Below, one piece after another: positions 42,423 through 52,305 of a DNA stretch of 64,000 nt; position 1 is the stretch's first letter, and each line of letters begins with the position of its first letter. This DNA comes from Bacteroidales bacterium F22 (lineage in GTDB: Bacteria; Bacteroidota; Bacteroidia; Bacteroidales; Bacteroidaceae): positions 744,001 to 808,000 of the forward strand of contig CP095414.1 of assembly GCA_029541985.1 (NCBI GenBank), in the 5' to 3' direction. The position numbers and the translations under genes were made by a program. Below the pieces are notes generated by a model, which was given only the letters and a program-made list of their open reading frames with translations, ran no database searches and was not told where the DNA came from.

Positions 42423-45400
42423 ATGTATAAGAAAAATAAATCATTAGGCATCGTCGAATTTTGTATGCACTACTACAAACTAGTCTTATTGATTACTGTA
42501 GCCATGGTAGGTATTGGTATTTACGCTATACTCAATATGCCTAAACAAGAATTTCCGCCCATAACAATCCGACAGGGAATGATAGTAGGGGTATATCCAG
42601 GAGCAACTTCTGCACAAGTGGAGGAACAAATAGCTAAGCCTCTAGAGAAATTCTTATTTACCTACAAAGAGATAAACAAAGACAAGACTTATACAATGAG
42701 TCAAGATGGTATTTGCTATGCCATGGTTGAACTCAATGATAATATAAATGATAGAGACCCTGTATGGTCTAAGATTAAGCTAGGGATAAACAATGAGTTG
42801 AAGCCTACCTTAAGTCCTGGTGTTCTCGCTGTAATTGTCAACGATAACTTCGGGGATACCTCTGCATTGCTTATTTCTTTACAAAGCAAAGAAAAGACTT
42901 ATCGAGAGTTGGAGAATTATCTTGATCTCCTTGAAGGGAAATTACGCCGAATAAAATCGGTTTCTAATTTGCGCCGTTATGGATTGCAGAAAGAACGAAT
43001 CGGCATATATATAAACAGACAAAAGCTTAATAGTTTCAAGATTAGCTATCTCCAAGTGATGACTGCTCTGCAGATGAAAGGACTAACTACTGTCAGTGGT
43101 TCGGTAGACGGAGAATCAGAAAATCTACCTATCCATGTGACGAGTAGTATGGATACAGAACAAAATATAGCCAATCAAATCATTCTTTCGCTACCTGGAC
43201 AACAAACGGTAAGATTGAAAGATATAGCGACGATTAAACGCGAATATCCAACTCCAGATAGTTATATCCAGAATAATGATACTCCTTGCATCCTCCTCTC
43301 GCTTGAAATGACTGAAGGAAACAATATCGTAGAATATGGTAATCAAGTAGATGAGGTATTGAAGGAGTTTAAGACTACATTGCCTACAAGTGTGCAAATG
43401 GAACGAATCGCAGATAGTCCTAAGGTTGTACGCAATTCGGTCACTAGTTTCATCAGAGATTTATTTACTTCAATTGCTGTAGTAATCTTCGTCATGATGC
43501 TCCTTTTCCCGTTTCGTAGTGCACTGGTATCTGCCACTTCTATCCCTATCAGTATATTTATTACGTTAGCAATCATGTACTTCAGCCATATCCCATTGAA
43601 TACAGTGACTTTGGCTGCATTGATTGTCGTACTCGGTATGATAGTCGATAACTCAATCATCGTGATTGATGCTTATGTAGCTAATCTTGACAAAGGGATG
43701 AGTAGATGGCATGCTGCAGTATATAGTGCTAGAGAATATGCGTGGAGTATCTTCTTAGCCACAGTTTGTATTTGTAGTATTTTCTATCCTCTACGACTTA
43801 CTTTTACTGGACTTTTCCGTGATTTCATCGAGGATTTCCCTAACACGATGACTATTTCTTTGATGACTTCTTTTGTCGTAGCGATGCTTTTGATTCCATT
43901 CTTGGAATTTATACTCATCAAGAAGGGATTAGTAGCAAGAGCAAAGGAACGTGAAGCTAAAGGAAAGAAAAAAAGGAAAAGTATCTTAAACTACGTAGAA
44001 GAAGCATATGTATGGGTATTAACTCGTTGTTTCAAGGCTCCTGTATTGTCTTTATTAGTAGGCGCATTGGTTATTGGAGGTGGAGCTTGGATGATGTATG
44101 ACTTGCCTAAGCGTATGCTCCCTTATGCTGATAGAGACCAATTTGCAGTAGAGATATTCTTGCCTAAAGGTTCTACACTTGATCAGACAAAAGAGGTCTG
44201 TGATAGTTTATCTCATATTCTTCTTAGAGATTCTAGAGTGAAGAGTGTCACTAAATTTGTAGGTACATCATCTCCACGGTTCCAAACGACTTATGCTCCG
44301 AATATCCCAGGGAAAAACTATGGACAATTTATTGTCAATACTACTAGTATAGAGGATGATCAAGATATGCTTGCTGAATATACTGATAAATATGAACAGT
44401 ATTTCCCAAATGCTTTCTGTCATTTCAAAGAATTGGAATATCAAAAAGTAGCTGTACCAATCGAGGTACGCTATTATGGAGATAATATTGATAGTATCAT
44501 GAATTGTGCAGATACACTAATAGCTCACATGCATGACATCCCTGAATTGACATGGATACATACAAACTTTGAGACTATACGTCCAACGCTTGAAGTAAAA
44601 TTAGACCCAGTTAAGACTGGCCGATTAGGTCTAACAAAGGCTTCTGCTGAATTTCAACTCATGGCTATGCAGGAAGGAATCTCTGCAGGTACATTATGGG
44701 AAGGGGATTATCCGATGGATATTCATGTAGAGCAGCAAAAACAGGGAAAGGAAACAGTCGATGACTTAACTGACAGTTATCTAACGACCAATATGCCATC
44801 TATTCGAGTTCCTCTTCGACAAGTTGCAGAGATTAAACCAGCATGGGAATATAGCCAAATCGTTCGACGTAATGGAGTACGTACTGTATCTGTGCTCGCT
44901 AATCTGAAGTTTCACTCCGATCAGAATAAGGCTTTTGCAAAGGTATTGAAGCTCCATGAAAAATACGTGGCACCGACCATGCCGCAAGGAGTAAAAATGG
45001 AAATTGGAGGAACTATCGAAGATGATAATGAGATTATTCCACCAATCGTGAAGGGTATATCTATTGCTATTCTGATTATTTTCACAATGTTGTTGATTAA
45101 TTTCAAAAAGATATCGTTGGCACTAGCATCTCTTTCCAGTATCTTACTCTGCATATTAGGTGCTGCTATTGGACTTAAGATATTTGGTCTTCATTTTGGA
45201 ATCACAAGCATATTGGGATTAATCTCTTTGATGGGATGTATAGTCCGTAATGCTATATTGATTTTTGAACATGCCGAGGATAAACGAATAAATGAGCGCA
45301 TGAGTGCTAAAGATGCTGCGTTTGATGCAGGTAAACGACGTATGCTCCCAATATTCTTAACATCAGCCACTACTGGTGTGGGAGTCATCCCGATGATTCT

Positions 45401-46862
45401 TAGTCATAGCTCACTGTGGATGCCTATGGGAGTAGTCATTTGTTTCGGTACCTTCTTCTCGATGGTACTTTGTGTCATTCTGCTTCCTCTAATATATACT
45501 GTTATTTTTAAGAATGAAAAGACTAAAAAGATGAAATTGATAAGCCAACCTAAGGTCTTGGTTCTAATAGGTCTTATGGCTCTAGGAGGTCCTACTTTTG
45601 CTCAGAATACAAGTACCGATTCTATTCATAATTCGTACAATCTCCAAGAGTGTATCGAACTAGCTATCAAACATAATTATATGCTTGATAATGCTAGAAA
45701 AGATATCGAACTTTCGAATCAGCAGAAGAAAGAGGCATTGACCAAATATTTTCCTAATATCTCAGCTGGATTAACAGCTTATCAAGCTCACACCCCATTT
45801 ATAGAGGAAACCTTGAGTTTACCTATCACTGGAGTACCTGCAATTCCAGTTACGATGATGAAGAAAGGGTATTATGAATCGGTTAGTGCAGTACAGCCTG
45901 TGTTTACTGGCGGACAAATAATCAATGCTAACAGACTTGCTCAGGTGGGAAAAGAAAGTAGTACTTTACAAGCTATTCGGACAGAAAAACAAGTTAGAGA
46001 AACCACTGAAGCATACTTTTGGCGAGTAATCAATCTGCACGAGAAACGAAAGACACTCGAAGCTCAAAAGTTATTACTTGACCAATTGCATCATGATGTG
46101 AAGTTGGCTGTTCAAGTGGGCGTAACAAATCGAAATGACCAACTACGTGTAGAACTCCAACAGTCACGTCTAGAAAGCGGATTGATTACAGTTAATCATG
46201 CTATCGAGATTAGTCGGTTGGCACTTGCTCAATATATCGGAATACAAGATCAAAAATCAGATTTTCATGTTGAGTTGCAAGATTTCCCATTAATTGAAGA
46301 TCCTATGAGCTATTTCTTATCAGCCTATGATGCAGTACAAAATAGAGAAGGATATGCTTTATTGGGAAAACAAGTCAAGGCTAACCAATTACAACGAGAT
46401 ATGGAAATAGGAAAACGTCTCCCTACTGTCGCTATAGGAGCTAGCTTATGTCAATATAATTTACTGGATGAAACAGACCATAATGCACTTGTCTTTGCAA
46501 CTGTAAAAGTACCTCTTTCTGACTGGTGGGGAGGAAGTCATGCCATTAATCAAAAGAAAATAGCAATAGAAAAAGCTCAAAACAATCTCAAAAATGGGCG
46601 TGAGTTGATGGAGCTGGAAACCACTCAGACTTGGAACCAATTGACTGAAGCTTATGACCAAGTAAATATAGCTAGAAAAGCAATCGAAAGTAGTAAAGAG
46701 AATCTGCGATTAAATACGGATACTTATCAAGCTGGAACAACTACTATGGCTGATCTTTTGGATGCACAGATGTTACTTCAAGAGAGTGAAAATCAACTTA
46801 CAGAAGCAAAAACAAAGTATATGGTAACGTTAGCTAAATACAAACGTATCACAGGACAATAG
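42423..46862 (+). CDS. RND efflux pump fused to TolC-like outer-membrane factor
   Basis: 1479 aa. Residues 1-1030 are an RND inner-membrane pump: TM1 near 15-35, IVVLGMIVDNSIIVIDAYV in the TM4 region with proton-relay Asp residues, and a last helix cluster ending VLCVILLPLIYTVIFKNEK. It looks HAE-type rather than heavy-metal type. Without a stop, the frame continues into KKMKLISQPKVLVLIGLMALGGPTFAQ, a complete Sec signal peptide (start equivalent Met1037, DNA 45531), and then a TolC/OEP protein (about 1055-1479) with paired coiled-coil repeats such as LQECIELAIKHNYML and EAYDQVNIARKAIESSKENLRLNTDTYQAGTTTMADLLDAQ. Either signal peptidase releases the outer-membrane part from a polyprotein or an internal start at 45531 is used. 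RND-OMF fusions are known in Bacteroidetes, chiefly for CusA-like pumps. Confidence 0.9.
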   Translation: MYKKNKSLGIVEFCMHYYKLVLLITVAMVGIGIYAILNMPKQEFPPITIRQGMIVGVYPGATSAQVEEQIAKPLEKFLFTYKEINKDKTYTMSQDGICYAMVELNDNINDRDPVWSKIKLGINNELKPTLSPGVLAVIVNDNFGDTSALLISLQSKEKTYRELENYLDLLEGKLRRIKSVSNLRRYGLQKERIGIYINRQKLNSFKISYLQVMTALQMKGLTTVSGSVDGESENLPIHVTSSMDTEQNIANQIILSLPGQQTVRLKDIATIKREYPTPDSYIQNNDTPCILLSLEMTEGNNIVEYGNQVDEVLKEFKTTLPTSVQMERIADSPKVVRNSVTSFIRDLFTSIAVVIFVMMLLFPFRSALVSATSIPISIFITLAIMYFSHIPLNTVTLAALIVVLGMIVDNSIIVIDAYVANLDKGMSRWHAAVYSAREYAWSIFLATVCICSIFYPLRLTFTGLFRDFIEDFPNTMTISLMTSFVVAMLLIPFLEFILIKKGLVARAKEREAKGKKKRKSILNYVEEAYVWVLTRCFKAPVLSLLVGALVIGGGAWMMYDLPKRMLPYADRDQFAVEIFLPKGSTLDQTKEVCDSLSHILLRDSRVKSVTKFVGTSSPRFQTTYAPNIPGKNYGQFIVNTTSIEDDQDMLAEYTDKYEQYFPNAFCHFKELEYQKVAVPIEVRYYGDNIDSIMNCADTLIAHMHDIPELTWIHTNFETIRPTLEVKLDPVKTGRLGLTKASAEFQLMAMQEGISAGTLWEGDYPMDIHVEQQKQGKETVDDLTDSYLTTNMPSIRVPLRQVAEIKPAWEYSQIVRRNGVRTVSVLANLKFHSDQNKAFAKVLKLHEKYVAPTMPQGVKMEIGGTIEDDNEIIPPIVKGISIAILIIFTMLLINFKKISLALASLSSILLCILGAAIGLKIFGLHFGITSILGLISLMGCIVRNAILIFEHAEDKRINERMSAKDAAFDAGKRRMLPIFLTSATTGVGVIPMILSHSSLWMPMGVVICFGTFFSMVLCVILLPLIYTVIFKNEKTKKMKLISQPKVLVLIGLMALGGPTFAQNTSTDSIHNSYNLQECIELAIKHNYMLDNARKDIELSNQQKKEALTKYFPNISAGLTAYQAHTPFIEETLSLPITGVPAIPVTMMKKGYYESVSAVQPVFTGGQIINANRLAQVGKESSTLQAIRTEKQVRETTEAYFWRVINLHEKRKTLEAQKLLLDQLHHDVKLAVQVGVTNRNDQLRVELQQSRLESGLITVNHAIEISRLALAQYIGIQDQKSDFHVELQDFPLIEDPMSYFLSAYDAVQNREGYALLGKQVKANQLQRDMEIGKRLPTVAIGASLCQYNLLDETDHNALVFATVKVPLSDWWGGSHAINQKKIAIEKAQNNLKNGRELMELETTQTWNQLTEAYDQVNIARKAIESSKENLRLNTDTYQAGTTTMADLLDAQMLLQESENQLTEAKTKYMVTLAKYKRITGQ

Positions 46863-52112: not shown

Positions 52113-52172
52113 TACGGATATGGCAATCATTATTCAGAAAACGAAAATAATAAAATGAGGAGTCAAAAGAAG

Positions 52173-52244
52173 TAGCCTCGTGGGGAATCAAACCCCAATC
52201 TACGGTACCGGAAACCGCTATTCTATTCATTGAACTACGAGGCC
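52173..52244 (-). tRNA. tRNA-Arg(CCG)
   Basis: On the minus strand a full cloverleaf folds: acceptor GGCCTCG/CGAGGCT, D-stem GTTC/GAAT, anticodon arm GCGGT-TTCCGGT-ACCGT with anticodon CCG, variable AGAT, T-arm TGGGG-TTTGATT-CCCCA, discriminator A; CCA is not encoded. A15-U48 is present. Unusual: the D-loop has A at 19 and the T-loop U at 56 where G19-C56 is nearly universal; the two changes would keep a Watson-Crick pair. Confidence 0.93.
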
Positions 52245-52273: not shown

Positions 52274-52305
52274 CAAAAGTAGCATTTTATCCTGACCCAA
52301 ACAAA
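52274..52305 (-). promoter_or_regulatory. tRNA-Arg promoter
   Basis: Minus-strand -33 TTTG (52302-52305), 20-nt spacer, -7 TACTTTTG (52274-52281), placing the start about 20-25 nt before the tRNA. Confidence 0.75.

Follow-up and report, generated by a model that had tools for sequence, protein, structure and literature searches.

The tRNA-Arg(CCG) gene of Bacteroidales bacterium F22 has A19 and U56 in place of the canonical, nearly universal elbow letters G19 and C56, and the two positions remain complementary in the Watson-Crick sense. The gene lies in the window, by which we mean the whole 64,000-nucleotide stretch of DNA that was analysed. It is very probably a working tRNA, the sole one found in the genome for its anticodon, reading CGG and presumably expressed and charged, in which G19-C56 was exchanged in place for A19-U56. 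The exchange recurs across isoacceptors and many lineages, and it affects two distant positions that change together. The best reading is that selection maintains a Watson-Crick pair at the elbow, and not the letters G and C. This represents a natural compensatory-mutation experiment, run repeatedly, in which complementarity is kept and the letters are not, and through which selection on the elbow becomes directly measurable.

The identity of the gene is well supported. ARAGORN calls a tRNA-Arg(ccg) at 52172-52244 on the minus strand, and the covariance-model alignment runs over the whole of RF00005 (model positions 1-71 of 71) at 56.8 bits, against a gathering threshold of 29. Folded alone, the 72 nt strand gives an exact cloverleaf at -26.7 kcal/mol (z -3.13), and 1 of 200 shuffles folds equally well. 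The acceptor, D, anticodon and T stems count 7, 4, 5 and 5 bp, with G-U pairs at 1-72, 10-25 and 27-43, and the anticodon loop and the T-loop have 7 nt each. The D-loop, AAUGAAUA, reads A14 A15 U16 G18 A19 A20 U20a A21; A19 stands 18 nt behind the 5' end because Sprinzl position 17 is absent. The variable loop is AGAU (with U48), the T-stem UGGGG/CCCCA, and the T-loop UUUGAUU, that is U54 U55 U56 G57 A58 U59 U60. G18, U54, U55 and A58 are intact, and the elbow is changed at 19 and 56 only. A misaligned loop was considered and rejected, the 7-nt T-loop being closed by G53-C61 with no alternative register apparent. The initial annotation had quoted the same loop letters and the same exchange, and had described all other elements, including A15-U48, as normal; A15 and U48 are indeed present. 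Its further claim, that a Watson-Crick tertiary pair is preserved, is favoured by the complementarity of the letters and by comparison with relatives. The features are collected in the table.

Features of the tRNA-Arg(CCG) locus, in window positions
Feature	Position	Strand	Basis or remark
Promoter-like site TTTG-N20-TACTTTTG	52274..52305	-	ends 29 nt upstream of the tRNA
tRNA-Arg(CCG) gene, A19-U56 elbow, CCA not encoded	52173..52244	-	ARAGORN; Rfam RF00005, 56.8 bits; cloverleaf fold
A19 (D-loop), T on the plus strand	52226..52226	-	Sprinzl numbering, base counted by hand
U56 (T-loop), A on the plus strand	52191..52191	-	Sprinzl numbering, base counted by hand

The exchange reaches beyond the single gene that the initial annotation had in view, which is one of seven of its kind in the genome. 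The genome consists of a single contig, estimated to be 92.77% complete, in which Rfam finds 67 tRNA genes. All were fetched and parsed: 60 are G19-C56, seven are A19-U56, and none is mixed. The seven comprise one Arg(CCG) gene and two each of Arg(ACG), Gly(UCC) and Ser(UGA), and each of these isoacceptors is served by A-U genes only. Because the joint change is found in four isoacceptors and no gene is mixed among the 67, it goes beyond chance. The initial annotation had named a second, intact tRNA-Arg(CCG) as a finding that would overturn it, with this gene then a silent copy. No such copy turned up, since a DNA search of the genome returned one match, the gene itself, and the inventory holds one CCG gene among the 67. 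There is also no Arg(UCG) gene among these 67, at the estimated completeness given above. With a single CCG gene and no Arg(UCG) gene, decoding rules imply that the reading of CGG should fall to the window's tRNA; the codon is in use, at 8 of 4924 codons in six long open reading frames of the window.

The coupling of positions 19 and 56 was followed with patterns that left both open. In the phylum, these matched Gly(UCC) in 210 of 247 genomes and Arg(ACG) in 193 of 247, and among the matches listed every A19 goes with T56 and every G19 with C56. By family, again among the matches listed, Arg(ACG) is A-U in f1, f121, f125 and f127, and G-C in f120, f122, f124, f126, f128, f129 and other classes. 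A survey of the class with one D-arm pattern, covering tRNAs whose D-arm reads CTCA..AGAG (that of the window's tRNA differs), found A19 with U56 in 80 of 365 genomes (119 matches, counted by hand), and neither A19 with C56 nor G19 with U56 in any of the 365. The G19-C56 control, run on 48 genomes of the class, matched in every one, 574 times in all or 12.0 per genome. Were the two positions independent, roughly a hundred matches of each mixed form would be expected, as estimated from the survey counts. In a set of 293 unique tRNAs collected irrespective of the 19-56 combination (loci L001-L208), 252 are G-C, 41 are A-U and none is mixed. Before counting, tRNAs that were truncated or unreadable to the numbering script were left out, and loci L209-L358, recruited by patterns demanding A19 and U56, were excluded as evidence for coupling.

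Trees built with both columns masked, and without Arg and Gly tRNAs of unusual loop lengths, need at least 10 switches for Arg (84 rows) and at least 6 for Gly (41 rows). Where branches are supported, the independent pairs changed together in 4 of 4 cases for Arg (sign test, p 0.125) and 3 of 3 for Gly (p 0.25); the trees, built on 72 columns, are weakly resolved, with many forks open, and neither sign test reaches 0.05 alone. Adding the conditioned, and hence biased, loci gives 15 and 7 switches, with 8 and 1 supported pairs. As a separate observation on loci L001-L358, all 140 unique A19-U56 tRNAs carry G57 vs 295 of 382 G19-C56 tRNAs, a comparison confounded by the recruitment patterns and by isoacceptor make-up; the A19+U56 pattern used on the genome collection itself demanded G57. 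Ten of the viral A-U tRNAs carry A57.

The searches of cellular genomes returned no wobble or mismatch intermediate, yet such forms are present in viral contigs. There, the A-U pattern returned at least 120 stretches, 116 of the loci having a matching ARAGORN tRNA. Among viral loci L479-L587, A19-C56 was found at 41 loci (29 with a matching ARAGORN tRNA) and G19-U56 at 68 (58 with one), so the patterns are able to detect mixed forms. Such half-changed elbows suggest a relaxed constraint on phage tRNAs, and they are presumably tolerated where the tRNAs are accessory. In cellular loci, 2 of 524 unique tRNAs are neither G-C nor A-U, both outside Bacteroidota by title. One is a tRNA-Lys(UUU) on an Elusimicrobia contig (L277, 2844-2918), with D-loop AATGAAA and T-loop TTAGATT, which would set A19 opposite A56; the same contig also holds an A19-U56 Arg(UCG). 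The other is an odd tRNA-Met(CAU) call in Cylindrospermum sp. NIES-4074 (L325, 4257-4330), with a 6-nt D-loop, AATGCA, and a T-loop of TGCCAAT.

Reviews place 19-56, as a Watson-Crick pair, at the end of the stack of A58, G18, G57 and G19 (PMC7912444, PMC4810234, PMC5309774), and portray G19-C56 as a flat face used for stacking by the L1 stalk, RNase P and T-boxes (PMC4810234, PMC5309774). The pair is called conserved (PMC4810234, PMC7912444), or present in all canonical tRNAs (PMC10412605). Since A19-U56 is likewise a Watson-Crick pair, the elbow should fold as usual, capping the G18/G57 stack and turning a flat face toward the ribosome, RNase P and the synthetases. A G-U wobble or an A-C mismatch would be expected to shift the geometry that A-U retains, and selection against both would explain the absence of G19-U56 and A19-C56. 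Most economically, there may be two near-equivalent states with poor intermediates between them, such that a lineage would seldom make the crossing and, once across, would have both letters changed.

Engineered tRNAs bear upon this picture. In human mitochondrial tRNA-Ser(UGA), G19C abolishes charging and an engineered A19:U56 restores it (PMC10412605). With PRORP3 on pre-tRNA-Gly, A19/U56 is cleaved at 1.78 vs 1.67 per min for the wild type, with a KM of 7.7 vs 4.8 nM, and the single C56U, which is the G19-U56 form, is also near normal (1.81 per min, KM 6.4); another PRORP assay puts C56U down to 22%, and G19A still at 85% (PMC5039416). On the PRORP3 figures, this enzyme is not what forbids the intermediates, and the ribosome or a synthetase would be a better candidate. 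Site-specific 2-thiolation of U54 in Thermus requires C56 (PMC7912444), so the change to U56 would matter to at least one enzyme.

Compared with canonical tRNA (RF00005), the window's tRNA shares the cloverleaf, G18, U54-U55, R57, A58, A15-U48 and the complementarity of 19 and 56, and differs in the A and U at these two positions. It shares the pair exchange itself with the engineered human mitochondrial tRNA-Ser(UGA) and Thermus pre-tRNA-Gly, which are active in mSerRS charging and PRORP3 cleavage, respectively (PMC10412605, PMC5039416); those were made in vitro, whereas here the exchange is natural, recurrent, and seated in chromosomal sole-decoder genes. tRNA-Pyl and many mitochondrial tRNAs, which do without the contact of G18-G19 with the T-psi-C loop, are likewise natural departures from G19-C56, but there letters and contact are missing or replaced (PMC7609411), whereas here complementarity is kept. 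We found no description of a natural A19-U56 pair in the open-licence literature, using term forms that miss the spelling 'A19:U56', and tRNA compilations may well contain it.

Across the genome collection, the A19+U56 pattern returned at least 120 stretches. Among the matches listed, all 80 loci hold a matching ARAGORN tRNA, 83 genes in total: 49 Arg(ACG), 16 Gly(TCC), six Ala(CGC), three Arg(TCG), two Arg(CCG), two Val(TAC), and one each of Lys(TTT), Ala(GGC), Gly(CCC), Gly(GCC) and Thr(AGT). Cultured Bacteroides whose Gly(UCC) carries the A-U elbow include B. clarus and B. oleiciplenus. By title, 15 of these 80 listed loci lie outside Bacteroidota, and one further names no group. The outside groups among these matches are Alphaproteobacteria, Opitutae, Oligoflexia, Elusimicrobia, Clostridia, Planctomycetota, Gastranaerophilales, Saccharibacteria, Pyrinomonadaceae and Fructobacillus pseudoficulneus; most of the outside loci are metagenome-assembled, and misbinning is possible for single cases.

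The concentration of these listed matches in Arg and Gly, owed partly to which tRNAs the patterns fit, raises the rather doubtful alternative that selection favours the A-U elbow in its own right in certain isoacceptors, beyond tolerating it. It would then tune how the elbow docks (at the E site or on RNase P), how U54/U55 are modified, or how arginyl- or glycyl-tRNA synthetase makes contact. For Gly(UCC), the best-scoring 29 newly fetched loci of the order split into 27 with A-U and two with G-C (L134, L147), a share biased by an A-U query. Arginyl-tRNA synthetase contacts the D-loop near A20, beside A19, which we take as a lead only. However, A-U elbows also occur in tRNAs for Ala, Thr, Val, Lys and Ser, and an isoacceptor that is A-U in one family or genus is G-C in sister ones, as expected of near-equivalent states. 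A wider version of this idea, which we put forward as speculative, would treat the elbow pair of Bacteroidia, and sporadically that of other phyla, as a character with two discrete states, G19-C56 and A19-U56, between which lineages switch with no stay in G-U or A-C, and with A-U kept for a purpose in particular sole-decoder Arg and Gly tRNAs, for example as a synthetase or elbow-docking signal.

A history of remoulding, in which an A-U Arg(ACG) changed its anticodon to CCG or converted part of a neighbouring gene, would need few true double changes, and we regard it as improbable. The genus contributed no further genome to the comparison. A search with the window's tRNA at E 0.001 gave matches in 59 of 149 genomes of the order, and one at E 1 in 41 of 61 genomes of the family. 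The fetched loci hold 28 Arg(CCG) genes including the window's, of which 24 are G-C and four A-U (G000, G174, G152, G162); in the same loci, the Arg(UCG) of G054 is A-U. The four A-U genes divide evenly by loop length, two combining an 8-nt D-loop with a 4-nt variable loop and two a 9-nt with a 5-nt. These two length classes suggest at least two origins of A-U Arg(CCG). The longer class, G152 and G162, has the loops usual in Arg(ACG), as remoulding would predict. The window's gene, on the other hand, has the 8-nt and 4-nt loops of Arg(CCG)/Arg(CCT), and its closest relatives are G-C Arg(CCG) genes, at 9 and 11 differences with 19, 56 and the anticodon excluded. As its nearest relatives are G19-C56 genes of the same isoacceptor, the exchange in the window's gene probably happened in place.

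The consensus promoter reported by the initial annotation was recovered as TTTG-N20-TACTTTTG, which we take to be the Bacteroidota-type promoter consensus. Two such sites occur on the minus strand of the window, against 1.1 expected under a second-order Markov model, so the site counts by its location and not by rarity. In the fetched loci, the window's included, the strict consensus stands within 90 nt of three of four A-U and four of 24 G-C Arg(CCG) genes. That the gene is a decaying, silent pseudogene is very improbable: its 56.8 bits fall in the lower part of the ranking among the 67 tRNAs, and G19 to A19 is among five changes read as a pseudogene sign in a human tRNA-Cys (PMC6602477), but the cloverleaf is exact, the promoter-like site is in place, no other CCG gene was found, and the compensated double change is common to six other genes, including every Arg(ACG), Gly(UCC) and Ser(UGA) gene in the genome. 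When a tRNA gene shows A19 or U56, both positions need inspection before it is called a pseudogene.

The tRNA is flanked by a gene for a Wzz/GNVR/AAA protein on one side and a radical SAM protein gene on the other, and a threshold search of its neighbourhood with RF00005 found no tRNA besides it. Elsewhere in the window, a single 1479-aa frame (42423-46862, plus strand) fuses an AcrB-family RND pump to an outer-membrane efflux protein domain, with ACR_tran at residues 13-1028 and the best OEP stretch at 1304-1478.
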